24,441 nt of DNA from a virus (IMGVR_UViG_3300025771_000180:1-24441), one strand, 5' to 3'. Numbered from the stretch's first letter, positions 487 through 24,073 are shown. The notes: generated by a model not told the origin, from the sequence alone. A program made the numbers and translations.

Positions 487-1131
487 TTATCCAAATATTG
501 CTACAGTTAAGTATCCAACGTGCTGATTAGTAACAGTATTACTGTGTCCAAAATTAACTTTAACTGCTGATGTTGTTTTTGTAGTTGGTTGTTGATTACC
601 ACTTCCATCAGCACTGGCAAGCACCATTAATGTGCTGTTGTAGTTAGAATATCCTGTGCATATTCCTGCAACTGCATAATCTGCATTAGGCATCGCTGAT
701 GTAAAATTAATTGTTGCTTGTCCTGTTGCATTGTCAGTTACTGATGAAACATTACCTGAACCTTGAATAGTTCCTGCTGCTGGTGATGTTCCGCCATTAA
801 ATGATACCCATGCACGACAAGCATATACAGGAGCAGGACCACTAGCATTAAATAATGACAAAGCATCAGAATCTGAATAAGAAGATATGCCTGTTAAAGC
901 AGAACCATCAATCGCTGGTAATGTGCCAGTCAACGCTGATGCAGGTATTGTCTTACCGCTTGCCATTGTAATACCACTACTATTTACAGTCATTACATCA
1001 GTAGGGGCATCGGCATTACCGACACCTATTCTTATACTTCCGTCTGGCGGATCAGGCTGATATATAGTAAAGTTGTTGGTTGACGTTCCGTCAGTGCCTA
1101 CCTGGTATTTAACTGTTTTTACTGTACTCAT
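487..1131 (-). CDS. Mosaic tail-fibre protein with ARAW/VAIF C-terminal domain, 214 aa
   Basis: I take ATG at 1131 (MSTVKTVKYQV) rather than the in-frame TTG at 1140, because the upstream gene stops at 1133 and the two look translationally coupled. Residues 1-75 form a fibre-shaft-like module with MTVNSSGITMASGKTI, shared with the 214-aa gene at 3415-4059 (INSSGITMGSGKAI). The last ~110 residues form a beta domain: CRAWVSFNGG, GNVSSVTDNATG, INFTSAMP, terminal VAIFG. This domain is repeated in the genes at 2627 and 6172. It is probably a receptor-binding or virion-attached fibre tip. The stop codon lies inside the conserved TTTGGATAAGGAAAAA junction that also gives the next gene its ribosome-binding site. 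Confidence 0.75.
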   Translation of the reverse strand: MSTVKTVKYQVGTDGTSTNNFTIYQPDPPDGSIRIGVGNADAPTDVMTVNSSGITMASGKTIPASALTGTLPAIDGSALTGISSYSDSDALSLFNASGPAPVYACRAWVSFNGGTSPAAGTIQGSGNVSSVTDNATGQATINFTSAMPNADYAVAGICTGYSNYNSTLMVLASADGSGNQQPTTKTTSAVKVNFGHSNTVTNQHVGYLTVAIFG

Positions 1132-1132
1132 C

Positions 1133-1297
1133 TTATACAATCGTCCATGTTGCGTCTGTGCTTATTGTTATTATAGTCCCATCTGCTACTGTTATGGGGC
1201 CTGCCGTTAATGCGTTTGTATTCGCAGCAATAGTATAACTATCTGAAATCGTATTACTGTTTTCTACAAAACCAATGCCATTAATTGTTACGCTCAT
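1133..1297 (-). CDS. 54-aa fibre-tip module protein
   Basis: A short ORF (MSVTINGIGFVENSN...) with a strong GAGGAGG 5 nt upstream of its ATG. Its ATG overlaps the stop of the upstream 51-aa gene (ATGA). The whole product is a free-standing copy of a C-terminal module found at the ends of the genes at 4080 and 8653: N-x-TIS, then DYT or SYT, N-A, GP(I/V)T(V/I) and a final W-(T/V/L)-(I/V). It ends TWTIV, compared with RWVVL and RWLVL in the others. This is a structural virion or fibre accessory protein by homology to the module. It is followed 1 nt later by the next fibre gene, so coupled translation is likely. Confidence 0.7.
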   Translation of the reverse strand: MSVTINGIGFVENSNTISDSYTIAANTNALTAGPITVADGTIITISTDATWTIV

Positions 1298-1449
1298 TCT
1301 GCCTCCTCTGGTGTATTACCTTCTGCTAACCATTCTTTAAACTGTTCATATTCTTCTGTACACTGTATATTTTTATTACCATTATCATCTATTTGTTGAT
1401 ACATCTGTATATCATCTACATCGACTTTAGCTATTTTTATATATCTCAT
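1294..1449 (-). CDS. Small tail-fibre-assembly-like protein, 51 aa
   Basis: A 51-aa acidic protein (MRYIKIAKVDVDD...) overlapping the upstream fibre gene by ATGA at 1449-1446 and the downstream gene by ATGA at 1297-1294. The C-terminus reads EWLAEGNTPEEAE. A W-L-A-x-GN-x-P-x-x-A motif of this sort is familiar from tail-fibre assembly (Tfa/gp38-like) and tail-assembly chaperone proteins. A close relative with the same ending lies at 4349-4528. The codons for PEEAE contain GAGGAGGC, which is the Shine-Dalgarno site of the next gene. The inferred role is folding or attachment of the neighbouring fibre; the exact function is unproven. Confidence 0.7.
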   Translation of the reverse strand: MRYIKIAKVDVDDIQMYQQIDDNGNKNIQCTEEYEQFKEWLAEGNTPEEAE

Positions 1450-2588
1450 AATTCTGCACTCCAAGCAAGATAAGCATCAGTAGTAGTAGAACGAAAATGT
1501 CCAGCTTGACCACTAGTTAGTCCACCACTAACAGTAAAATATATTCTACCTCCCCAACTAGTTACACCACTTAATAAGGGAAGACTAGTACAATTTTGAG
1601 CAGCATTGCCTGCATACCATATTCTATAGTCAGATGCTGTTCCAGTCGTTTCCATACTTGTTGGAGGTATTCTCATTTGAGTGGTAAATTTTATAGAGCC
1701 TGCTAATTGGGTTGATGATTGAATTGAGCCATTTCCAAATAAGCACGCCGTAGCTGCACCAGAATCATTTGCTAATTTATAATAATACCTCTGACATCTT
1801 GCTAACTGCATATCGTATGGCATAACTTCAAATGGTGTAGCTGTGTCACCTACTTCTAGTTGTACACCTGTGATGTTAATGTAGTTAGAAGTAGAGTCTG
1901 CTAGGTTGACTTGTCCTACTGCTCTTTGAGGAACATTTGTTGATGCCCATGATGTATTTAAAGTTCCATTAGAAGTATAATCACTACCAGCAACTAACCA
2001 CATTCCTACACTAAATCCAGAACCATTATCATTTGGTAATACTCCAGAAGTATCTCCAACAAATGTTATAGTCTTTTTTTCCCAAGTATCTGCTGTATCA
2101 ATAGTATATGATTTTGAAATTTGTCTTACATTATCGTCATCAAATATTTCTGCAATATAAGTTCCAGTTTTGTTAGACTTTACCCAAAAAGAATATGTTA
2201 AACTTTCTGCACTAGATGTGCCTTTTTTAATATGTTGAAGGTTTTGTGCTTCTATTCTTTGCCTTATAAAAAAGAAAGCAGTAGAACCTAAACTTGCATT
2301 TGCTGTTGTACATTGCATCTTTAAACTATTAGCAAATCCTTGTCCAGTTGGCACATCAGTTGATTGTGTTTGTGTCCATGTTCCAGCAGAATTCCCACCA
2401 GTAAGTAAAAATCTATCAACAGTATAATATCCTGATGTTGTAATACTAGCTTGTGAAGTTCCCCTCTGTGCTATCCTCATATCACCATTGATGATGAGGT
2501 TCTTTGTTCCAATAGGAGACGCGGCGGCCCACTGCTCTGAGCCATCATTAAATGTTACACCGTCTGTTCCGTTAAGCTGAAGGCTCAC
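1446..2588 (-). CDS. Tail fibre with carbohydrate-binding-like domain, 380 aa
   Basis: The GTG start at 2588 is chosen because AGGAG lies 6 nt upstream and no in-frame ATG precedes LQLNGTDGVTFNDGSEQW, a typical fibre N-terminal motif. Residues 30-43 read NLIINGDMRIAQRG and open a long beta-sandwich-like domain (SYTIDTADTWEKKTITF; NLADSTSNYINITGVQLEVG; PYDMQLARCQRYY near 260). That pattern is widespread in phage fibres and resembles carbohydrate-binding modules. The final ~110 residues are a different, probably receptor-specific, domain. The 398-aa gene at 4529 is a close paralogue through the central domain but differs at both ends. The stop overlaps the next gene as ATGA. Confidence 0.8.
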   Translation of the reverse strand: MSLQLNGTDGVTFNDGSEQWAAASPIGTKNLIINGDMRIAQRGTSQASITTSGYYTVDRFLLTGGNSAGTWTQTQSTDVPTGQGFANSLKMQCTTANASLGSTAFFFIRQRIEAQNLQHIKKGTSSAESLTYSFWVKSNKTGTYIAEIFDDDNVRQISKSYTIDTADTWEKKTITFVGDTSGVLPNDNGSGFSVGMWLVAGSDYTSNGTLNTSWASTNVPQRAVGQVNLADSTSNYINITGVQLEVGDTATPFEVMPYDMQLARCQRYYYKLANDSGAATACLFGNGSIQSSTQLAGSIKFTTQMRIPPTSMETTGTASDYRIWYAGNAAQNCTSLPLLSGVTSWGGRIYFTVSGGLTSGQAGHFRSTTTDAYLAWSAEL

Positions 2589-2617
2589 ATGTAGCTCCTT
2601 TTAATTCTTTTATTCAT
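2585..2617 (-). CDS. Possible 10-aa leader peptide (MNKRIKRSYM)
   Basis: A ten-codon frame starts at ATG 2617, 3-7 nt after AAGGAAAAATT, the same ribosome-binding cassette used by the genes at 477 and 6162. Its last codons ATG TGA overlap the GTG start of the 380-aa fibre. It also carries the downstream AGGAG site in its Lys-Arg-Ser codons. It could couple translation of the fibre to the gene upstream, or be a leftover of a gene whose body was replaced by recombination. No similarity is expected at this length, so confidence that a functional peptide is made is low. Confidence 0.3.
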   Translation of the reverse strand: MNKRIKRSYM

Positions 2618-2626
2618 AATTTTTCC

Positions 2627-3103
2627 TTATCTAAATATTGCAACATAACAATGTGCTACATCTACTTGGCTAGTCCTGTAATAAGAATTTATTGTAGTAT
2701 GGTTAGTTGCTTCAGATTCTGCTTGAAGCCATATATCCCTATTTGTTGCCATTCCAGTTAATCCAGCACAAGTTGAAACTGTTGCATAATTAGTATCTGC
2801 CATAGCAGTTGTAAAATTTACATCATAATTGCCAGTGCCATTATCAGTAATACTTGATACATTCCCACTAGCACGAATAGCTACTGTACCTGTGCCATTA
2901 AAGTTTACCCATGCACGAGCAGAATAAGATGGAGCAGAGCCACTAGCTGTAGAAAGTGCCGCTGGGGGATTTGAATCTATGTTATTTGTCGTTATAACCG
3001 TTCCATTCCCAGTCGGTAAAGTCAGCGTGGTTGAGCCTGCGACGTCGGGTGCGGCGATTTCAACTTGGCCTGATGTGTTTCCTTTGATTACTATGCTACT
3101 CAT
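2627..3103 (-). CDS. Mosaic tail-fibre protein with ARAW/VAIF domain, 158 aa
   Basis: The N-terminal ~40 residues (MSSIVIKGNTSGQVEI, APDVAGSTTLTLP) match the N-terminus of the 89-aa protein at 4080 (NTSGTVTLSAPDVAGSTTINLP), so this is a shared attachment or shaft module. The remaining ~110 residues are the same C-terminal domain as at 487 and 6172: ARAWVNFNGTG, ASGNVSSITDNGTG, VNFTTAMADTNY, final VAIFR. The ATG follows GGAG at 6 nt. This is a virion fibre component by module homology. Its stop is embedded in TTTAGATAAGGAAAAA, which supplies the ribosome-binding site to the ten-codon frame downstream. Confidence 0.75.
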   Translation of the reverse strand: MSSIVIKGNTSGQVEIAAPDVAGSTTLTLPTGNGTVITTNNIDSNPPAALSTASGSAPSYSARAWVNFNGTGTVAIRASGNVSSITDNGTGNYDVNFTTAMADTNYATVSTCAGLTGMATNRDIWLQAESEATNHTTINSYYRTSQVDVAHCYVAIFR

Positions 3104-3106
3104 GTA

Positions 3107-3415
3107 TTACTCCGGTTTAGGATACTTCGCTTTTACTGCTTGGCAGTCTGCTATGTATTTATCTATTTGAGCTTGGTCACCTTTTACGATGCCGTCTAGG
3201 TATTCTTTAAAATCAGGATATTCTAATGCTCTGTCTCTTTGATATTGTGTTGCTTGATATGCATTATTAACTTCTATTTGTTTTGCATTAATTGCATCTG
3301 TATCTGGTGTAATAGTATTACCGTTTTCATCTAATAAAGTATAACTACCATCATTATTATAAATTACAGTTGATACATTAGTGTGTATCTTTTTTATTTC
3401 GTCATGTATGTTCAT
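3107..3415 (-). CDS. Tail-assembly-associated protein, 102 aa
   Basis: A 102-aa soluble, mostly helical protein. The N-terminal part has NNDGSYTLLDENGNTI. The C-terminal half has YQRDRALEYPDFKEYLDGIVKGD and ends VKAKYPKPE. A pattern of the form R..EYP....QLD.l.KGD...ik.vKakYPKP is common in small phage proteins encoded beside fibre genes, and I take this as one of that type. Its ATG shares a base with the stop of the upstream 214-aa fibre gene (TAATG), suggesting coupled expression. The likely role is in fibre folding or tail assembly. No catalytic motif is seen. Confidence 0.65.
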   Translation of the reverse strand: MNIHDEIKKIHTNVSTVIYNNDGSYTLLDENGNTITPDTDAINAKQIEVNNAYQATQYQRDRALEYPDFKEYLDGIVKGDQAQIDKYIADCQAVKAKYPKPE

Positions 3416-4059
3416 TATCCAGCAATCTCCATAGCAATAATACTTGATAAACCTCTTTCATAAGAAGAATTGTTTTGGTCAGTAACAGTGCCATTTGTCC
3501 ATAGTGTGTGTGCCCTATCACCATACAATCCAACTTTGTATGTTATAGCACTAGTAGTAGATGGTGAATCAATATACTGCATATACATTGATTCAGGAGT
3601 TGAGGAAGCATTATTAAGCCAATAACTTAATGCTGCAGTTTGAATACCACAACTACGAGAGCCTGTTTGAGCATGACCTAGTTTAGTTGAGTCTCTATAA
3701 AAAAACCACATTGTACTATATATAGCATCAGAATTTCCAAATTCACCCATCCATGATGACGTTAATAATATTTTACTAGATGTAGACGATGGAGTAATTG
3801 ATACTTCAAAGTTAGTAATAGCAGTATTTGTATTAGCAGAAATAGATTGACTAAATCTTGTATCTAATGTTGTAGACACTACTTGTAATATTTTACCGCC
3901 AGCACCAGCACCAGATATAGCTTTACCACTGCCCATTGTAATTCCACTACTATTTATTATAGCAACAGTATCTGACCCAGACTGTATTTGTATTTCGTCT
4001 GATGAATCAGATATAAGCTGTAATCCACTTGCACTGTCTGCTTTTATTCTATTTGGCAT
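3415..4059 (-). CDS. Tail-fibre protein, 214 aa
   Basis: The N-terminus (MPNRIKADSASGLQLISDSS, then DEIQIQSGSDTVAIINSSG, ITMGSGKAISGAGAGG) is a fibre-shaft module. It shares the VAIINSSGITMGSGKAI element with the gene at 487 and IQSG with the gene at 4529. From about residue 60 a unique beta-rich domain follows (VVSTTLDTRFSQSISANTNTAI...), ending SSIIAMEIAG. Domains of the form tall.fsasI.Ps.snSKIlL are known from many phage and metagenomic fibre proteins. A receptor-binding or decoration role is inferred. The start follows AAAAAGG with 7 nt spacing. It is translationally coupled to the 102-aa gene by TAATG. Confidence 0.75.
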   Translation of the reverse strand: MPNRIKADSASGLQLISDSSDEIQIQSGSDTVAIINSSGITMGSGKAISGAGAGGKILQVVSTTLDTRFSQSISANTNTAITNFEVSITPSSTSSKILLTSSWMGEFGNSDAIYSTMWFFYRDSTKLGHAQTGSRSCGIQTAALSYWLNNASSTPESMYMQYIDSPSTTSAITYKVGLYGDRAHTLWTNGTVTDQNNSSYERGLSSIIAMEIAG

Positions 4060-4079
4060 ATCTAACCTTTTTCTCTAAA

Positions 4080-4349
4080 TTATAGCACGACCCAACGTTG
4101 TCCCGTGGGTATAGTCACCGTCACACTCGGATCTATTGTTATAGGCCCGACACTCATTGCGTTTTGCCCAGTTGATAAAGTGTAGTCTGCACTGATCGTT
4201 GTTGTGTTTTCGTATAAAACCCCGCCTGCTTTTGCTACGACTAAGTTCCCACTGGTTGAGGGTAAGTTGATTGTGGTAGACCCTGCAACATCAGGTGCAG
4301 ATAAGGTTACGGTTCCGCTGGTGTTACCAGCAACAATAATATCAGCCAT
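4080..4349 (-). CDS. Two-module fibre protein, 89 aa
   Basis: An 89-aa protein made of two modules seen elsewhere in the window. Residues 1-38 (NTSGTVTLSAPDVAGSTTINLP) match the N-terminus of the 158-aa fibre at 2627. Residues 43-89 (VLYENTTTISADYTLSTG, then GPITIDPSVTVTIPTGQRWVVL in part) match the 54-aa gene at 1133 and the C-terminus of the 171-aa gene at 8653. The protein is therefore a minimal attachment-plus-tip chimera. The ATG shares a base with the stop of the 59-aa assembly-like gene (TAATG). The Shine-Dalgarno site (GAGGAGG) lies within that gene's final codons. Confidence 0.7.
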   Translation of the reverse strand: MADIIVAGNTSGTVTLSAPDVAGSTTINLPSTSGNLVVAKAGGVLYENTTTISADYTLSTGQNAMSVGPITIDPSVTVTIPTGQRWVVL

Positions 4350-4528
4350 TAATCAGCCTCCTCTGGTGTATTACCTTCTGCTAACCATTCTAGGTATTCA
4401 TGGTAGTGACGATTAGATTCTTCTAATGGAATACTCAATGTTGTTCCATCAGTTAAAGTAACATTTACTAAATCTGCTTGTGTTAGATTATTATCTGATT
4501 TTACTAATTTTGCTAATTGAATATTCAT
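4349..4528 (-). CDS. Small tail-fibre-assembly-like protein, 59 aa
   Basis: An ORF that starts immediately after the stop of the 398-aa fibre (TAA followed directly by ATG) and overlaps the next gene by TAATG. The product (MNIQLAKLVKSDNN...) ends YLEWLAEGNTPEEAD, almost the same C-terminus as the 51-aa protein at 1294. The two N-termini differ, so the conserved tail is the shared functional part. The motif resembles those of tail-fibre assembly (Tfa/DUF4376-like) proteins. In both cases the gene follows a carbohydrate-binding-type fibre and precedes a DYT/GPIT module gene, which suggests duplication of the whole three-gene cassette. Confidence 0.7.
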   Translation of the reverse strand: MNIQLAKLVKSDNNLTQADLVNVTLTDGTTLSIPLEESNRHYHEYLEWLAEGNTPEEAD

Positions 4529-5725
4529 TTATAACTCCGCATCTAATGTCCAAGTACCAACTAATTTTAATCCTAAAGCATATCCACCAGAATCAGGTGC
4601 TGATGGACAAGTAATTCTAATAGTTATTAAATTGTTTCTTCTTGAATTATTTAGATAAGTTCCATTTGTATATGTAGAGCCATTTCTATATTCTGCTGTA
4701 CCATATTCAATAGTTTGAGTTGATGTTCTCATTACTACAGGAAAATACACAGTAGTACAATATCTACTTGTATTATCAAAATAAAAGCTAGTTAAATATT
4801 CTACATTTTCTGGCAATCTTTGGAAATACCTCTGACATCTTGCTAACTGTACATCATAAGGTAAGTTCTCGAAGTCTGTCGCGGTTGAGCCTACTTCTAA
4901 CTGAACGCCTGTGATATTAATATAATTTGAAGTGGAGTCTGCTAGGTTGACTTGAGATGAAGCAACAGCATTAGCTGGGATATAAGATTCCCAACTTGTT
5001 GCTAATGTACCTGAAGTATAGTCTGTGCCTGCCAATAACCACATATACAAATGTAATGATGCGGCATTATCATTATCAAATGCACCTGTTGTATCGCCAG
5101 CAAAAGTAATAGTTTTCTGCTCCCAAGTGTCAGCAACATCAATAGTATAAGATTTAGAAATCCATCTAGTGTTATCACTATCAAATAAACTTGCTGTAAG
5201 TGTTCCAGTTTTATTTGCTTTTACCCAAAAACTTAAAGTTAAACTTTCAGCAGAAGCTGTGCCTTTTTTAAGATGTTGTAAGTTTTGTCCTTCAAGCCTA
5301 GTAACTATTGCTGCATTAGAACCAGCACTTAAACTAGCATTGGCTGTTGTGCAATCCATTTTTAAACTAGTGGCAAAACCTTGTCCACTTGGAACATCTG
5401 TATCTTGTGATTGTGTCCAAGTCCCACCAGATGCTAATAATTGTCTATATCTATCAACAGTATAATATCCTGATGTTGTAATACTCGATGTAGATGCCCC
5501 CCTCTGTGCAATCCTCATATCACCATTGATGATTAAGTTTCTAAAACTTGGTTGGGTTGAGTAGACTGCGCCGTTTTGAGAGAAAGACCCGGTGACAGCA
5601 ACGCCACTTGAAGTAACGCTCATTACAGTAGTACCACCAGACTGAATATTAATATTGCCTGAGTTATCAGCCGAGGTTTCTAGACCTCCGACTCCGGTTG
5701 TCTTTGCATTTATATTAATTGCCAT
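4529..5725 (-). CDS. Tail fibre with carbohydrate-binding-like domain, 398 aa
   Basis: Residues 1-60 (MAININAKTTGVGGLETSAD; NINIQSGGTTVMSVTSSGVAVTG) are a shaft module common in fibre proteins. From residue 63 the protein has NLIINGDMRIAQRG and continues as a paralogue of the 380-aa fibre at 1446: SYTIDVADTWEQKTITFAGD, NLADSTSNYINITGVQLEVG, PYDVQLARCQRYF. The last ~100 residues are unlike those of the paralogue, apart from the shared final AEL. AGGAG lies about 8 nt before the ATG. The likely role is a virion fibre binding host surface glycans. Conserved core plus divergent tip is the usual pattern for host-range evolution. Confidence 0.8.
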   Translation of the reverse strand: MAININAKTTGVGGLETSADNSGNINIQSGGTTVMSVTSSGVAVTGSFSQNGAVYSTQPSFRNLIINGDMRIAQRGASTSSITTSGYYTVDRYRQLLASGGTWTQSQDTDVPSGQGFATSLKMDCTTANASLSAGSNAAIVTRLEGQNLQHLKKGTASAESLTLSFWVKANKTGTLTASLFDSDNTRWISKSYTIDVADTWEQKTITFAGDTTGAFDNDNAASLHLYMWLLAGTDYTSGTLATSWESYIPANAVASSQVNLADSTSNYINITGVQLEVGSTATDFENLPYDVQLARCQRYFQRLPENVEYLTSFYFDNTSRYCTTVYFPVVMRTSTQTIEYGTAEYRNGSTYTNGTYLNNSRRNNLITIRITCPSAPDSGGYALGLKLVGTWTLDAEL

Positions 5726-5728
5726 TAA

Positions 5729-5968
5729 TTAGACTCCTACGTCTGGTAGTGTCGCTGCCTTTAATTGTTCTACTGTTGTCATTGAATCTACTTGAGCTGG
5801 AGCATCTCTTAATGCCTGTTTTTTAGTAACAATGTCAGAAGTATCAGCGCCTGCTTCTAATGCTCTTTGAAAAGCAACATCTAATGCTTCTAGTTTAGGT
5901 GCTCTTTCAACACGAAGTCTATCTTTAGTAATGTCTTTTGCTTTATTAATATTTACTTGTATAGCCAT
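5729..5968 (-). CDS. Tail-fibre-assembly/chaperone-like protein, 79 aa
   Basis: I place the start at ATG 5968 (MAIQVNINKAKDI), which shares a base with the upstream stop (TAATG) and has GGAG about 8 nt upstream; the in-frame ATG at 5983 has no such site. The helical middle reads RAPKLEALDVAFQRALEAGADTSDIVTKKQALRDAPAQ in continuous sequence. The K..ALRDaP ending resembles the YRQALRDiP signature of phage tail-assembly chaperone proteins. It therefore most likely assists assembly of the neighbouring 398-aa fibre. No enzymatic motif is present. Confidence 0.65.
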   Translation of the reverse strand: MAIQVNINKAKDITKDRLRVERAPKLEALDVAFQRALEAGADTSDIVTKKQALRDAPAQVDSMTTVEQLKAATLPDVGV

Positions 5969-6162
5969 TATGCCCACTCCCATGCGTTTCTAAAAGTTCT
6001 ATCAGATGGTATTTCTGATACATCTACAATATGATAATCTTTACCTGCTGGTACATCTTTAGCAGCTAATTCTTCTATTGTATGTTCTGCTAACCATTCT
6101 GCTGTTGGAATAATAATACTAATTCCGCCTTCATCATTGTTATATACGATTCTTTTTTCCAT
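5968..6162 (-). CDS. Small tail-associated protein, 64 aa
   Basis: A 64-aa acidic protein (MEKRIVYNNDEGGISIIIPT...). It contains AEWLAEHTIEELAAKDVPAG and ends DRTFRNAWEWA. This layout (a short strand region, a helix, VPAGKDYHIVDVSEIPSDRTFRNAWE) is one I recognise from small phage proteins preceding the ALRDaP-type protein, often as halves of a single tail-assembly protein. Together the 64- and 79-aa genes may be a split version of such a protein, and their TAATG overlap fits that idea. The ATG follows AAGGAAAAAAT inside the conserved junction at the end of the 423-aa fibre. Confidence 0.6.
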   Translation of the reverse strand: MEKRIVYNNDEGGISIIIPTAEWLAEHTIEELAAKDVPAGKDYHIVDVSEIPSDRTFRNAWEWA

Positions 6163-6171
6163 ATTTTTTCC

Positions 6172-7443
6172 TTATCTAAAAATTGCTACGCCAACTGGAT
6201 TAAAATCACCTGCAATGGTAACAGTGTCACCACCACCTGCAATATAATAACTTTGAATTCTAACACTACCTGTTGCTCTAGCAGAAGAATTATCCAAAGT
6301 TGTAACATGAACTTGGTTTTGTTGATATACACTTGAACCAAATACAACTGAATAATTAGTGTCAGGCATTGCTGTTGTAAATGTTAAAGTAAAATCTCCT
6401 GTGCCATTATCTGTTAATGATGAAATATTAGCGCTACTTTGTAATACAGCAGATGGCTCATTAATTGATGCCCATGCTCTAGCACCATAATAAGGAGCAG
6501 AACCTGTAGTTTCTGAAACAATCCCTGCTGATCCCCAGCTAAATGTTCCATCACCATCAGACAACAAAGCTTGCCCTGAAGTACCATCACCACTAACATT
6601 TAATTCATCGGCACCAACTGAGTTATCTGCTATTGTTGCAGCATTGACTTCATTTAATGTAGCTAATGATCCTAATCCTAATGATGTTCTTGCTGTTGCT
6701 CCAGACTCAGCTACCCATGTAGTACCATTTCCAACAATAATATTACCATCTGTTTTAGCTAGGTTAGAGATAGCTTGAAGGTCAGCATCATACGCTTGCA
6801 CATCTGTACCAATAGCAACGCCTAGATTAGTTCTAGCATCTGATGCAGTAGAAGCACCAGTACCACCATCAGCAATTGTTAAATCTGTAATACCTACAAT
6901 AGTACCGCCAGATACGTTGATTGCAGTTGCATTTTGAACTGCCATTGAGCCTAAACCTAAATTAGTTCTTGCAGTAGACGAATCAGAAGCGCCAGTACCG
7001 CCATCAGCAATAGCTAAATCAGTGCCTAAAGTTAAACTACTTGCGTGCGTTGTAACTTGTTGCATATCAGTGCCATCATTAAAGAGCACCATAGTTTTGC
7101 CTGCAGGAACAGCAATACCGGTACCTCCTGATGGAGTGACAGTAACAGCATCAGCTAAACCATTATTAATTATATATTGCTTTTCAATAGCTGGAACGGT
7201 TAATACTCGAGCACCGCCTGATGTGCCTGTTAGATTAAGTCTTAAATTACGAGCCGATTGTGTTGTGTTAGTATCGGTAAGAGTTAAAGTAACATCGGCA
7301 CTTGTAAAACTAATATCAACAGAACCTGTAATAGCTTCTTCTATTGCTGTGCCTAAGTTAGTATTTGTCGTTGTACCCCATGTACCAGATTGTTCACCTG
7401 TACCTATGAGTTCTATTTTTAAATCTGAATACGTACTTGCCAT
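6172..7443 (-). CDS. Tail fibre with GGTGAS repeats, 423 aa
   Basis: The N-terminal ~140 residues (MASTYSDLKIELIGTGEQSG, TWG, SARNLRLNLTGTSGGARVLTVP, VTVTPSGGTGIAVPAG) form a module common in phage fibre proteins. It is followed by two IADGGTGAS....ARTNLG repeats (from about 143 and 190) and a degenerate third (SGATARTSLGLGS), the repeat type familiar from lambda Stf-like side fibres. The C-terminal ~110 residues are the ARAW...VAIFR domain shared with genes at 487 and 2627. AAGG lies 8 nt upstream of the ATG. This is the longest fibre in the window and probably a principal tail fibre. Confidence 0.85.
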   Translation of the reverse strand: MASTYSDLKIELIGTGEQSGTWGTTTNTNLGTAIEEAITGSVDISFTSADVTLTLTDTNTTQSARNLRLNLTGTSGGARVLTVPAIEKQYIINNGLADAVTVTPSGGTGIAVPAGKTMVLFNDGTDMQQVTTHASSLTLGTDLAIADGGTGASDSSTARTNLGLGSMAVQNATAINVSGGTIVGITDLTIADGGTGASTASDARTNLGVAIGTDVQAYDADLQAISNLAKTDGNIIVGNGTTWVAESGATARTSLGLGSLATLNEVNAATIADNSVGADELNVSGDGTSGQALLSDGDGTFSWGSAGIVSETTGSAPYYGARAWASINEPSAVLQSSANISSLTDNGTGDFTLTFTTAMPDTNYSVVFGSSVYQQNQVHVTTLDNSSARATGSVRIQSYYIAGGGDTVTIAGDFNPVGVAIFR

Positions 7444-7468: not shown

Positions 7469-7675
7469 TTAACTCGATTGTCCTTGCATTGGAATACTTG
7501 TCACGTGAATAGCTGTATGGCGTTTTTCGTCCCATGCTTCACCACAATCAGAGCATGTGCCTGAAGTGTATTCTTCTGCATCAACGGTCATACCACAATT
7601 AACGCATTCAAGACCAACTTCGTAGGTACATTCTATTCGACCATCTTCTAATTTTTTTGCTTCTACTTTTATCAT
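7469..7675 (-). CDS. Small zinc-ribbon protein, 68 aa
   Basis: A 68-aa protein with two CxxC knuckles (C24-C27 and C41-C44: CVNCG and CSDCG), which would bind one zinc ion as a ribbon. The surroundings are acidic and no other domain fits. It overlaps the stop of the 22-residue-repeat gene by ATGA, so it is probably translated with it. Zinc ribbons this small in phage structural operons are usually uncharacterised; nucleic-acid or protein binding are both possible. The function is not known. Confidence 0.65.
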   Translation of the reverse strand: MIKVEAKKLEDGRIECTYEVGLECVNCGMTVDAEEYTSGTCSDCGEAWDEKRHTAIHVTSIPMQGQSS

Positions 7676-8652
7676 GCCGCTATCTCCGTCCAGTTAGGTG
7701 ATTGTGCTTCATTTACATCACTCCAACTATTAGTTTGTGAATCGTTTATATCTACCCATCCTGGAGTCTGTCCATCATCTATATCACTCCATACTAATAC
7801 ATTGCTTGTACTTGCTGTTAAAAGGAACCCAGTAATATCAACTAATACACCTCGTCCTTCTATAACTGTTACAGTGCCAACTTGTCCTGTTATTTGTAGT
7901 CCTGTTACTTCGGCATTCGCATCTGCTTCTACTGTTACAGACTCTAATACTGTTGTACCTGTAACCCCTGTAACAACTACATTTGCATCTGCGGTAACAG
8001 TTTCATCACCAAGTTGTGTAGTACCAAACACTCCTGTAACAACTACATTAGCATCTGCTGTTACAGTTTCATCACCAAGCTGTGTTGTGCCTACAACACC
8101 TGTAACACTAACACTAATTCCTGTACCTTCTATTACAGTAACAGATTCTAGCGTTGTAGTTGCTACTAATCCTGTTAAATTAACGTTAGCATCTGCTTCT
8201 ATTGTTACAGATTCTAATACTGTTGTAGCAGATACTCCTGTTACATCTACATTTGCGTCTGCTTGTACTTCTTCATCGCCTAGTTGTGTTGTAGCTTCTA
8301 GGCCTGTAACACTTATATTATTGTTTGTTATTAAGCTTACGCTTTCTAACGTTGTAGTTGCTTCTAGTCCAGTAACATCTATGCTTTGATTAATTGCAAC
8401 GGTTACACTTTCTACAACTCCTGTAGCCGATACGCCTGTTACATTTACATTTGCATCTGCAGTAACAACTTCATTTCCTAATTGTCCTGTTGCTTGTACA
8501 CCTACTACATTGACAACAGCTTTTCCAATTATAGTTTCGTTGCCTAGTTGGGTATTACCCTGAACACCTGTAACAGCAACTTCTACATTACCCGCTGCGC
8601 CCCCTTGCGCTGAAAACGGGGTACTGGAAAAAGGACTTTCAGAAAATAACAT
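7672..8652 (-). CDS. Virion protein with twelve ~22-residue repeats, 326 aa
   Basis: After a short leader (MLFSESPFSSTPFSAQGGAA), residues 22-287 consist of about twelve beta-type repeats of 22-24 residues. Their consensus is N-V-x-V-T-G-V-x-(A/G)-T-T-x-L-(G/E)-(D/S)-(E/V)-x-V-T-A-D-A. Residues 288-326 switch to an 11-residue tryptophan repeat: WSDIDDGQTPG, WVDINDSQTNS, WSDVNEAQSPN, WTEIAA. Neither part has a catalytic motif. The even period suggests a beta-solenoid or fibrous shaft on the virion. The ATG follows directly on the upstream TAA with no strong Shine-Dalgarno site, so translation is probably coupled. Neighbouring fibre genes support a tail or decoration role. Confidence 0.7.
   Translation of the reverse strand: MLFSESPFSSTPFSAQGGAAGNVEVAVTGVQGNTQLGNETIIGKAVVNVVGVQATGQLGNEVVTADANVNVTGVSATGVVESVTVAINQSIDVTGLEATTTLESVSLITNNNISVTGLEATTQLGDEEVQADANVDVTGVSATTVLESVTIEADANVNLTGLVATTTLESVTVIEGTGISVSVTGVVGTTQLGDETVTADANVVVTGVFGTTQLGDETVTADANVVVTGVTGTTVLESVTVEADANAEVTGLQITGQVGTVTVIEGRGVLVDITGFLLTASTSNVLVWSDIDDGQTPGWVDINDSQTNSWSDVNEAQSPNWTEIAA
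7792..8589 (-). repeat. 66-bp-period coding repeat (12 units)
   Basis: This is the DNA behind the 22-residue repeats. Units 8 and 9 (around 7980-8110) encode the same GTTQLGDETVTADA and are nearly identical at DNA level apart from third-base changes. Others have diverged, and three units are lengthened by two codons (IGKA, EGTGI, EGRGV). The pattern indicates recent unit duplication on top of an old array. Confidence 0.8.
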
Positions 8653-9168
8653 TTAGAGCACCAACCATCTCGATCCTGACGGGACTGTAAATGCTGTGCC
8701 CGCTGAAACAGTCACAGGTCCGGTGCTTGTAGCGTTATACCCTGAAGGTACTGTGTAATCTACTGAGATGGTTTTATTATTAACAAACACTCCATTTGAG
8801 GCGACCATCTCTTCGCCCGTAATAGAACCACCCGCTGTGACATTTCCTGATGCATCTTCATAAACGGATTTACCTGCAGGATAGACTACAAATACATCCT
8901 TATTCCCTGCTGAAAAGTTAACTGCACTTCCAGAGTTAGAAGAAGCAAGTATTGTATCCCTAGATAAAGTAGTGCCAGACGCAGTGTATGTACCAAGACC
9001 TACTTCCCACTCATCACCTTCTGGCAATGTAATAGTATAGTAAGTCGTGTTACCATCACCTATAACCGAAAAGCTATCAAAGTCAGTAACTGCTCCTGCG
9101 AGCGTAACGGTACCGGTACCAGTCGTGGCGGTCTGTTCTTTTACTCTGTCTTTTAAAACAAGAGCCAT
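8653..9168 (-). CDS. Fibre/virion protein with DRV N-domain and DYT/GPVT C-module, 171 aa
   Basis: Residues 1-110 (MALVLKDRVKEQTATTGTGT; SFSVIGDGNTTYYTI; EWEVGLGTYT; TLSRDTILASSNSG; VFVVYPAGKSVYED) form a module found in many phages, usually listed as a hypothetical or tail-fibre N-terminal protein. The final ~47 residues (NKTISVDYTVPSGYNATSTG, ending RWLVL) are the same C-terminal module as the 54-aa gene at 1133 and the 89-aa gene at 4080. AGGAGG is 5 nt from the ATG, one of the strongest sites in the array. The likely role is a tail or fibre adaptor carrying a replaceable tip. Confidence 0.75.
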   Translation of the reverse strand: MALVLKDRVKEQTATTGTGTVTLAGAVTDFDSFSVIGDGNTTYYTITLPEGDEWEVGLGTYTASGTTLSRDTILASSNSGSAVNFSAGNKDVFVVYPAGKSVYEDASGNVTAGGSITGEEMVASNGVFVNNKTISVDYTVPSGYNATSTGPVTVSAGTAFTVPSGSRWLVL

Positions 9169-12079: not shown

Positions 12080-12243
12080 TATTTACCTTTGTTTTTTCTA
12101 CATTTAGCTATAGCACCTGATGCATATGCGCTAGGGAAAACTTTGTATTGAGCTTTTACTTTTCTGTAACAAGCATCTTTAACCGAGCCGCCTTTTTTCA
12201 TAGCAACTGGTTTCATCGCTTTGCCCATACCGCGACACTTCAT
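12079..12243 (-). CDS. Small basic protein, 54 aa (KVKAQYKVFPSAYASGAIAKCRK type)
   Basis: A 54-codon frame with overlapping ends: its ATG at 12243 shares a base with the upstream TGA (TGATG) and its TAA shares a base with the next ATG (TAATG). It starts MKCRGMGKAMKPVAMKKGGSV, has CYRKVKAQYKVFPSAYASG, and ends AIAKCRKNKGK. The YRKVKa.YKVfPSAYASGAlaKCRK motif is a known short phage pattern that I have seen in several marine and cyanophage proteins. An MKKGG element is shared with the two following basic proteins. The function is unknown; the charge suggests DNA or capsid interior. Confidence 0.65.
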   Translation of the reverse strand: MKCRGMGKAMKPVAMKKGGSVKDACYRKVKAQYKVFPSAYASGAIAKCRKNKGK

Positions 12244-12614
12244 CATACCATGCGACCCTTTGTTTTACCGCGCACTGCACAACCATCACGTTTAACCATA
12301 CCGCCTTTTTTCATGCCTTTGTGAGCAGAGTCTTTCATCATTTTACCGTCTGGCATTTTATGATAACCTTTTTTGACTTTGCCACCTTTTTTCATGTCTT
12401 TAGTCATTTCATCAAGTTCTCTTGCTTCTTTTGATTTAGCTTTCCAACCTGGTTTTTCTGGTTTACCTGCTATCTCATCATAGTCTCTTGCTTCTTTTGA
12501 TTTAGCTTTCCAACCTTCTTTTTTATTATCTTCAGCTACTTTTTTAGATACATACTTTTCAAAGTCTTTATCTACTGAACCGCCTTTTTTCATTTTTTTA
12601 CCGCATCCAGCCAT
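12243..12614 (-). CDS. Lys/Gly-rich basic protein with C-terminal KGKTKGRMV tag, 123 aa
   Basis: The start at ATG 12614 (MAGCGKKMKKGGSVDKD) has AGGAG 6 nt upstream, while an earlier in-frame start at 12701 lies within the preceding gene. The protein has MKKGG elements, two copies of a 22-residue unit beginning GWKAKSKEAR (33 identical bases at 12418-12450 and 12484-12516), and ends DGCAVRGKTKGRMV. The preceding 143-aa protein ends DGCAVKGKTKGRMV. Such tags close several basic proteins in marine phages, but no function is established that I know of. Possibly an internal or packaged virion protein. Confidence 0.65.
   Translation of the reverse strand: MAGCGKKMKKGGSVDKDFEKYVSKKVAEDNKKEGWKAKSKEARDYDEIAGKPEKPGWKAKSKEARELDEMTKDMKKGGKVKKGYHKMPDGKMMKDSAHKGMKKGGMVKRDGCAVRGKTKGRMV
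12418..12516 (-). repeat. 33-bp direct repeat, 66-bp period, in basic-protein gene
   Basis: An identical 33-bp segment occurs at 12418-12450 and again at 12484-12516. It encodes the GWKAKSKEAR region of each 22-residue unit. The identity at DNA level indicates a recent in-frame duplication. Confidence 0.85.
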
Positions 12615-12624
12615 AATAGTCTCC

Positions 12625-13056
12625 TTAAACCATACGTCCTTTTGTTTTACCTTTAACAGCACAGCCATCTGCACGTTTAGAGCAAGATGAAACTTTGCCA
12701 CCTTTTTTATAATTATTTTTAGTCATGCCCTTACCAACTTTACCACCTTTTTTCATGTAGCCCATTTTGTTACGAACATCTTTAGGTAATTTACCTAAGC
12801 TATCTTTTTTATCAGCAGGTACAGGTTTTTTATCATCAGACTTTTTAAATCCTTCTGGTGGGGGTAAATCTGTTTCTTTTTCACCAAACATTTTTTTGTC
12901 TTCTTCTGACATACCGCCTTCTCTATACTTCTTCACTTTAGTCTCCTTAGTAAATTCTTTTCCTACTTTCGTAGGTACACCCACTTTCTTTGCAAACTTA
13001 GGGTTATTAGCCACAGCTTGCATAAATCTTTCTTGTTTCTTACTCTTTGGAGGCAT
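12625..13056 (-). CDS. Small basic protein with MPPKSKKQERFMQA N-terminus and KGKTKGRMV tag, 143 aa
   Basis: The N-terminus MPPKSKKQERFMQAVANN, followed by PKFAKKVGVPTKVGKEF, is a recognisable conserved start of many phage proteins (KSKKQ.RFM.a.ah.p.fAkkvgi....ve.f). The middle is Lys/Asp/Pro rich. The end has YMKKGGKVGKGM and DGCAVKGKTKGRMV, the tag shared with the next gene. The stop is followed within 2 nt by the AAGGAG of the next gene. The upstream holin-like gene overlaps this start by 17 nt. Likely a small virion protein; function unknown. Confidence 0.65.
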   Translation of the reverse strand: MPPKSKKQERFMQAVANNPKFAKKVGVPTKVGKEFTKETKVKKYREGGMSEEDKKMFGEKETDLPPPEGFKKSDDKKPVPADKKDSLGKLPKDVRNKMGYMKKGGKVGKGMTKNNYKKGGKVSSCSKRADGCAVKGKTKGRMV

Positions 13057-17583: not shown

Positions 17584-18036
17584 TTATGTTGCACCGAAAA
17601 ATTTATCAGTGTTGGTGTTATATTTGCGTCTGTTCCAAACTGCAGGAACAACTTGTATATTGTAGTACTTGTTAGTACCACCTTTTGAAACAGGAACTAT
17701 GTGATCTATTTCCCATTTCATATTCGTTTGTTTTTCTCGCAGTTTACACAAACGATATGCTTCTTTTAAACAAAACTGGTCTAGCTCAGTTAAGTTTTTC
17801 TTTAATGCACGTCTTTTAATTCTAGCAACAGCTCTATAAAGTTTACCTTTTTTGGATTTTTCCCATAAAGCTTTTGCTTTTTTTCTTGCAAAAGAAACAG
17901 GTGTTTCTCTATGCTTTTTATTTATCTTTGCTTTGTTCCTAGCATAGTATCTTCTACCCCGAGCTCTAGAAAGTTCTTTTTGTCTTTCTGTGAGCTCTGA
18001 ATATTTTTTACGCTCTTTCGTAACCTCTTGGGTCAT
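17584..18036 (-). CDS. HNH endonuclease, 150 aa
   Basis: A basic 150-aa protein with a Lys/Arg-rich N-terminal half (RGRRYYARNKAKINKKHRET, RRALKKN). It has a C-terminal HNH nuclease motif: KWEIDHIVPVSKGG with D111-H112, N126 in YYNIQ and N135 in VWNRRK. The third His is replaced by Asn, as in many HNH enzymes. This would cut DNA. In a head-gene operon the likeliest reading is a free-standing homing endonuclease, or less likely a packaging-associated HNH protein. The ATG overlaps the GroES-like gene by 29 nt, so the insertion is neatly tucked between the chaperone and the scaffold. GAGG lies 9 nt upstream. Confidence 0.85.
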   Translation of the reverse strand: MTQEVTKERKKYSELTERQKELSRARGRRYYARNKAKINKKHRETPVSFARKKAKALWEKSKKGKLYRAVARIKRRALKKNLTELDQFCLKEAYRLCKLREKQTNMKWEIDHIVPVSKGGTNKYYNIQVVPAVWNRRKYNTNTDKFFGAT

Positions 18037-23685: not shown

Positions 23686-23728
23686 ACTTTAAACCTATTA
23701 ACCTTTGGTCAATTGGAAAGGCATGGTC

Positions 23729-24073
23729 GTGACATTATTAACTGACGATAATTTAAAACTTCTATATAAACTATTTGTTAAACTTCCGCCGTTCGATAAG
23801 ATAGATATGCCTCATGCTTGTCAGATTAAATTTAAAGTTACTCGACGCAAAGATATTATGGGAGAATTTGCTCCTGAAGAAAACACAATCTATATTAGTA
23901 GCGCTAAGAATGCGCACTTTGATACCATCTGCAAAACACTACTACATGAAATGGCACACCTATACTGTTATAAAGCAAAAGAACAGGAATACCACGACCA
24001 TGATAACAAACGTTTCAAAGCCATCATCAGACATATAGCCTCCTTATATGGGTTCGACCCTAAAGAACTTTAG
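23729..24073 (+). CDS. SprT-like zinc metalloprotease, 114 aa
   Basis: GTG at 23729 is preferred because GGAAAGG ends 7 nt upstream; ATG 23723 has only 1 nt spacing and a TTG at 23705 has no site. Residues 70-81 (KTLLHEMAHLYC) contain the HExxH zinc-protease motif H73-E74-x-x-H77, and the third ligand is H89 or H91 in EYHDHDNKRFKAII. The short ATP-independent SprT fold (about 110-150 aa) agrees with this size. Similar phage SprT proteins are common, but their substrates are not known. It follows the 71-aa gene on the same strand and converges on the 65-aa gene with a 4-bp overlap (24070-24073). Confidence 0.8.
   Translation: MTLLTDDNLKLLYKLFVKLPPFDKIDMPHACQIKFKVTRRKDIMGEFAPEENTIYISSAKNAHFDTICKTLLHEMAHLYCYKAKEQEYHDHDNKRFKAIIRHIASLYGFDPKEL

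Follow-up and report, generated by a model that had tools for sequence, protein, structure and literature searches.

Fibre slots of an aquatic phage as fixed sockets with heads exchanged between positions and between viruses

The tail-fibre genes described here are best read as an array of fixed sockets carrying exchangeable heads, in which blocks of sequence are swapped by recombination within and between viruses, and we put the probability of this reading at about 80%. In a related contig, L045, the fibre tip and the small-protein body of one fibre position (slot B) form a stretch of 467 nt that is identical to positions 1330-1796 in slot A of our sequence, and the flanks around this stretch are of the B type (94-98%). 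Slot-A blocks are thus found in slot B of a relative.

The window, by which we mean the whole stretch of DNA analysed, is a virus record of 24,441 nt. It belongs to an aquatic phage that, from its gene content, is probably podovirus-like, and its terminase is ~50% identical to the terminases of 023Pt_psg01, DSL-LC04 and the Pelagibacter phages HTVC023P and HTVC027P. The fibre-like genes of the tail region are packed as a tight array on the minus strand (Table 1). Unit B comprises a fibre of 398 aa (5725-4529), a small protein of 59 aa and a GPIT-module gene of 89 aa; unit A has a fibre of 380 aa (2588-1446) and corresponding products of 51 aa and 54 aa. This order of fibre, small protein and GPIT gene had been described at 2588-1133 and 5725-4080 in the initial annotation, and all six reading frames are as given there. 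The array also contains units of similar design, comprising 214-aa and 102-aa genes, a 158-aa gene and a 217-aa gene, whose fixed and variable parts, when the window is compared with L045, resemble the pattern of units A and B. The C-terminal 42 residues of the 102-aa small protein are 87-100% identical between the two, against 20-53% for its N-terminal part, and the 158-aa protein has an N-terminus that is 100% identical and a C-terminal end at 7-27%.

Table 1. Fibre slots and related genes in the window
Feature	Position	Strand	Basis or remark
Slot B dock, fibre B N-terminus (MAININAKTTGVGGLETSADNSG...), stationary	5543..5725	-	Comparison with L045 and slot-B relatives
Slot B fibre core, sugar-binding-like jelly-roll, exchangeable	4913..5542	-	Nucleotide comparison; fold modelled on homologous fibre A core
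Slot B linker (GSTATDFENLPYDVQLARCQRY), stationary, left seam	4823..4912	-	Nucleotide identity among relatives
Slot B tip, ~97 aa, exchangeable	4529..4822	-	Nucleotide comparison
Slot B small protein, 59 aa; exchangeable body, stationary tail WLAEGNTPEEAD	4349..4528	-	Window alignments and L045 profile
Slot B GPIT-module gene, 89 aa, stationary backbone	4080..4349	-	93-100% aa identity in L045; module also in L008 and others
Further slot, 214-aa protein and 102-aa small protein (N-part variable, C-terminus conserved)	3107..4059	-	Comparison with L045 (see text)
Further slot, 158-aa protein; C-terminal end replaced, N-terminus conserved	2627..3103	-	Comparison with L045
Slot A dock, fibre A N-terminus (MSLQLNGTDGVTFNDGS..., GTG start), stationary	2505..2588	-	100% aa identity in L045
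Slot A fibre core, exchangeable	1872..2504	-	Nucleotide and per-residue comparisons with relatives
Slot A linker (GDTATPFEVMPYDMQLARCQRY), stationary, left seam	1782..1871	-	0.97 nucleotide identity with slot A of L045
Slot A tip, ~111 aa, C-terminal end YLAWSAEL, exchangeable	1446..1781	-	Inside the 1330-1796 stretch that slot B of L045 matches at 100%
Slot A small protein, 51 aa; body travels with tip, tail WLAEGNTPEEAE stationary	1294..1449	-	L045 comparison
Slot A GPIT-module gene, 54 aa, stationary backbone	1133..1297	-	54/54 aa in L045
Further slot, 214-aa protein; C-terminal domain variable, N-terminus conserved	487..1131	-	Comparison with L045
Third GPIT-module gene, 171 aa, no adjoining fibre of the slot A/B family	8653..9168	-	Module ends the gene

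Several other genes of the window deserve mention. A 423-aa fibre-like protein (6172-7443, minus strand) carries IADGGTGASDSSTARTNLGLG repeats and a C-terminal RAW domain that is common to the 158-aa and 217-aa genes. The two small genes behind it (5729-6162, minus strand), of which the 84-aa one weakly resembles Pfam Phage_tail_APC at E 8e-4, below the cut-off, may encode a helper pair of its own. Also on the minus strand are a zinc-ribbon-like 68-aa protein amid structural genes (7469-7675), present in nearly all relatives; a protein with ~33-aa repeat units (VxVTGVxATxQLGDxTVxADANV; 7672-8652), whose length ranges from ~270 to 530 aa across relatives; two lysine-rich proteins with KKGGKV repeats (12243-13056); and, recognised by eye, an HNH-like protein of 150 aa among structural genes (17584-18036). 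An ORF on the plus strand upstream of the terminase genes (23705-24073) has, again by eye, a metalloprotease-like HEMAH motif.

The division into fixed and exchangeable parts emerges from per-residue comparison of the window with L045, in which docks, linkers, small-protein tails and GPIT genes are 93-100% identical, and cores, tips and small-protein bodies mostly 7-60%. Along both units, a conserved N-terminal stretch of the fibre (~60 aa in B, ~30 aa in A) gives way to a core mostly at 7-60%, identity returns to 93-100% in the linker that ends near CQRY, falls to ~13-60% in the tip and to 13-47% at the start of the small protein, and is again 93-100% at its end. Across contigs of the same genus, four parts stay with their position: the dock, the linker up to CQRY, a stretch of ~12 codons closing the small gene, and the GPIT gene. 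In nucleotide comparisons of same-slot pairs, for which ~0.60 is the score of unrelated sequence, flanks, dock and linker mostly lie at 0.81-0.99 and the tip and small body at ~0.57-0.72, the unrelated level; tips at this level beside near-identical flanks look replaced rather than gradually diverged. Slot B of the window compared with that of L031 gives 0.97 upstream, 0.99 in the dock, ~0.63 in the core, 0.92 in the linker, 0.59 in the tip, 0.66 in the small body, 0.82 in its tail and 0.96 downstream. More widely, the slot B dock is 93-100% identical in amino acids to that of L045 and 0.81-0.99 in nucleotides among slot-B relatives, the core is ~0.6 to L031 and L045 while its flanks are ~0.97, and the linker is 0.92-0.97 to slot B of L008, L031, L045 and L046. 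Against slot B of four relatives the slot B tip scores ~0.60, again the unrelated level, and it is otherwise present only in near-identical contigs. Each slot has its own linker residues (GSTATDFENLPYDVQL in B, GDTATPFEVMPYDMQL in A) and, in the window and L045, its own final residue in the small protein (D or E); the slot A dock type recurs in the cultured phages MEP401, MEP402 and Venkman. These fibres thus have an N-terminus conserved by position and a distal domain that differs among close relatives, the arrangement expected of an anchor with an exchangeable receptor-binding domain.

In our reading the N-terminal dock of the fibre is fixed in each slot and presumably attaches it to the virion; the linker is fixed as well, and so is the downstream gene, for which the tail of the small gene encodes the ribosome-binding site. 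Recombination replaces two types of block, one being the jelly-roll core and the other the ~100-aa tip with the body of the small protein, and the crossovers lie in two short conserved stretches, the CQRY of the linker and the EWLAEGN of the small protein. Since both stretches are common to all slots and to many phages, blocks can move between slots and between phages. A dedicated DNA recombination site at the seams was also considered and rejected, a synonymous-conservation test having found no clear conservation of the seam codons beyond the amino acids they encode. A search for the phage recombinases ERF, RecT, AAA_24, YqaJ and RecA gave no match in the two ~49-kb relatives, and YqaJ and AAA_24 matches were found only in Venkman.

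The conserved tail of the small gene also carries a translation signal. In both window slots the codons for PEEA in the small-protein tail form the Shine-Dalgarno sequence of the next gene (CCAGAGGAGGC...ATG), which in slot B is the ribosome-binding site of the downstream GPIT gene, so that the tail belongs partly to the stationary downstream gene. A Shine-Dalgarno core occurs at 63 of 87 junctions, within the small gene in 53 of these 63, compared with 7% of control windows, and GAG accounts for 43% of the Glu codons among the final six of the small gene against 17% elsewhere. A frequency of 71-72% of junctions is nothing unusual where phage genes are tightly packed, and what matters here is that the small-protein tail carries such a core. 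EWLAEGN is also conserved as protein, with W and G at 90% or more.

Both fibres give significant profile matches to phrog_4492 (tail fibre; E 1.3e-61 and 5.1e-58). Modelled with AlphaFold2 (pLDDT 86), fibre A has a jelly-roll core whose fold resembles CBM4/CBM16 (TM 0.63-0.71 on the target for many), with the tailspike CBA120 TSP4 as top match; a sequence search of the PDB found no convincing match. Glycan binding would fit this modelled core, and we infer virion attachment for the dock, sugar binding for the core and a helper role for the small protein. In L342, a Gemmataceae MAG, several consecutive fibres of the slot A/B family lie at 1223-4500, and the usual short small gene is not called between them.

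Across 125 unique fibres, from viral and cellular contigs, the tip ends in EL in 120, a short ORF (80 aa or less, median 58) lies behind the fibre in 104, and the two genes overlap or nearly touch (-4 to +3 nt) in 91. Isolate annotations mostly call this product a hypothetical protein, a Pfam scan assigned it to no family, and its predicted fold of three strands and one helix (pLDDT 84) retrieved nothing significant from the PDB. The family phrog_20370, which has no function in PHROGs, matches 21 of 42 small-family members, including that of slot B; the slot-A protein matches it weakly (E 0.009), and a longer homologue is encoded behind the fibre of P. putida phage Kaagvere. Where the same tip is joined to a different core (tip at least 0.8, core below 0.6), the small bodies are similar in all three pairs (0.76-1.0), and YLAW-type tips are accompanied by one small-protein type in 10/10 rows (about 6 contexts). 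Strict matching of tip and small protein is not supported by these comparisons, since L012 and MEP401 (L242) have near-identical small bodies (0.94) beside unrelated tips (0.15). The rank correlation between tip and small-body similarity was null in a small set. In a larger one, similar tips on different cores had more similar small bodies (permutation p 0.008, from rows that are not independent), and small bodies also track phage group (0.33 for similar cores with dissimilar tips, against a null of 0.20); for these reasons we rely on the close pairs.

The small gene lies directly downstream of the fibre and moves with the tip, as is typical of chaperone genes, and its product would probably aid folding or trimerisation of the adjacent tip, or cap it, in the manner of Tfa, gp38 and V22 gp27. 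A folding or capping helper, comparable with V22 gp27 (PMC7289586) and A5 gp9 (PMC10579305), is in our view its likeliest role, at odds slightly better than even, the argument being drawn from position, co-transfer and analogy. It is less probable, if still a serious competitor, that the protein gives no help and is carried along passively, or is a structural protein in its own right, and moves just because of its place between the seams. The occurrence of one small body with two unrelated tips is what such a passenger would produce, and the Pfam scan, the PDB fold search and the comparison with V22 gp27 showed no likeness of the protein to known chaperones of the Tfa, gp38 or V22 gp27 type; against this stand the regular position of the small gene close behind most of the 125 fibres and the constant partner of the YLAW-type tips.

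The initial annotation had accounted for the repeated gene order by supposing that a three-gene cassette was duplicated and that the copies then diverged and specialised, an explanation that we consider improbable. The alignment of the two cassettes that it proposed shows a shared fibre core (188 of 282 aligned residues identical, or 67%; shuffle z=107) and a shared small-protein tail, similar in the tail only (13/23; z=11.6), with fibre N-termini and tips that differ, as it had said. The poorly resolved core tree lends no support to one ancient core duplication but does not reject it either (AU p=0.80 for monophyly of the two window cores). For docks, tips and the GPIT gene, however, duplication is already contradicted: the docks are unrelated, the tips are at the unrelated level next to near-identical linkers, and the third gene stays behind when the others move. 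The GPIT modules of the two units are alike (17/43 identical, z=11.3), and the N-terminus of the 89-aa GPIT gene is shared with the 158-aa gene (20/37), but such modules also occur alone, as ends of many unrelated proteins (14 distinct modules), an independent occurrence that the annotation itself had set against duplication. In most relatives they keep to their own slot; in L056 the gene directly behind a B-dock fibre is the A-type GPIT gene. Judged by sequence, the GPIT gene is outside the moving unit: like the fibre N-terminus it is position-specific and vertically kept, whereas core, tip and small body are replaced as blocks. As sole explanation, cassette duplication is contradicted by this stationary third gene and by the exchange between slots. 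Of the proposal that two cassettes provide two specificities there survive the binding ends, which probably differ, and a small protein that moves with its tip.

Exchange of blocks between sockets is seen in other relatives as well. The slot-B core of L031 has 93% nucleotide identity over 696 nt to the slot-A core of L045, compared with 72% to slot B. Three slots (B, A and C) are present in L008, L011 and L171, and in L245, a contig whose terminase neighbourhood differs, a core 90% identical in nucleotides to that of L008 slot C is joined to a tip (0.94) and a small protein (body 0.76) that resemble their counterparts in L008 slot B. Nucleotide comparison thus places the seams and shows the exchange of blocks across them. 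L045 is a single contig and the slots have short identical stretches in common, circumstances in which metagenome assembly could join repeats, but we regard such an artefact as very improbable. At the left seam the common exact run is just 13 nt (TGTCAGAGGTATT, the CQRY codons and one base), and at the right seam L045 has its own third allele, unlike both window copies, which makes chimeric assembly unlikely; the window sequence, moreover, recurs in four other contigs named for different metagenomes. The same block replacement is seen in the cultured phages MEP401 and MEP402, from one host strain, which are ~95-100% alike downstream, 0.90 in the linker and 0.33-0.55 in the tip, with similarity resuming within the small gene, and this too argues against an assembly artefact. 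Venkman, also cultured, has two units of fibre and small protein. Least probable of all is a programmed diversity system (DNA inversion, a shufflon or reverse-transcriptase mutagenesis), for although hypervariable receptor-binding ends do lie next to constant parts, the slots repeat in the same orientation and lack long inverted repeats, whole blocks rather than single residues are replaced, and RVT_1, the mark of a diversity-generating retroelement, had no match in the L008, L011 and L009 records or in three isolates, the window itself being a fragment.

These comparisons locate the exchange sites of receptor-binding ends in aquatic phages at nucleotide resolution, with exchange running between fibre positions as well as between phages. 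With CQRY linker and EWLAEGN tail as common junctions, blocks could fit any slot, and we suggest tentatively, at somewhat less than even odds, that many unrelated aquatic phages draw on one pool of interchangeable blocks of tip and small protein, with the slots of one virion taking blocks from one another as well as from other phage families. The seams would allow annotators to locate variable tips, and a widespread, unnamed family of 50-60 aa is marked, by analogy, as a likely helper of these fibres. Cultured phages suitable for tests exist, namely P. putida podophages such as Kaagvere and the Methylophilales phages MEP401 and MEP402.

How does this array compare with known receptor-binding systems? 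In T4 (gp37/gp38) and Mu (S/Tfa) a fibre tip has an assembly helper beside it, and the window slots are similar in that a helper candidate adjoins the tip; family scans found no sequence relation between these proteins and the window genes. The marine pairs gp26/gp27 of Alteromonas phage V22 and gp8/gp9 of A5 have the helper encoded directly downstream of the fibre, and this pair is common to distant phage families (PMC7289586, PMC10579305). V22 gp27, at 195 aa, has no profile similarity to the small family (hhalign probability 0.1%), and a relation between them was rejected; V22 gp26 likewise has none to the window-family fibres. Klebsiella phages offer a further parallel, with conserved N-terminal anchors or peptides, several receptor-binding proteins per phage, and binding domains that are exchanged horizontally, sometimes with the cognate chaperone (PMC6872550, Latka et al. 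2019). The window array shares with them conserved N-terminal attachment, multiple receptor-binding proteins and exchanged binding domains. The Klebsiella proteins, however, are depolymerases with C-terminal chaperone domains (PMC6872550), whereas the window fibres have a CBM-like jelly-roll core and a separate gene for a helper candidate of 50-60 aa, and in the window genus exchange between slots is seen directly. A fixed anchor with a swapped receptor-binding part, sometimes with a helper gene, was thus already known; what is new is exchange from slot to slot with mapped seams, together with an unnamed family of small proteins.
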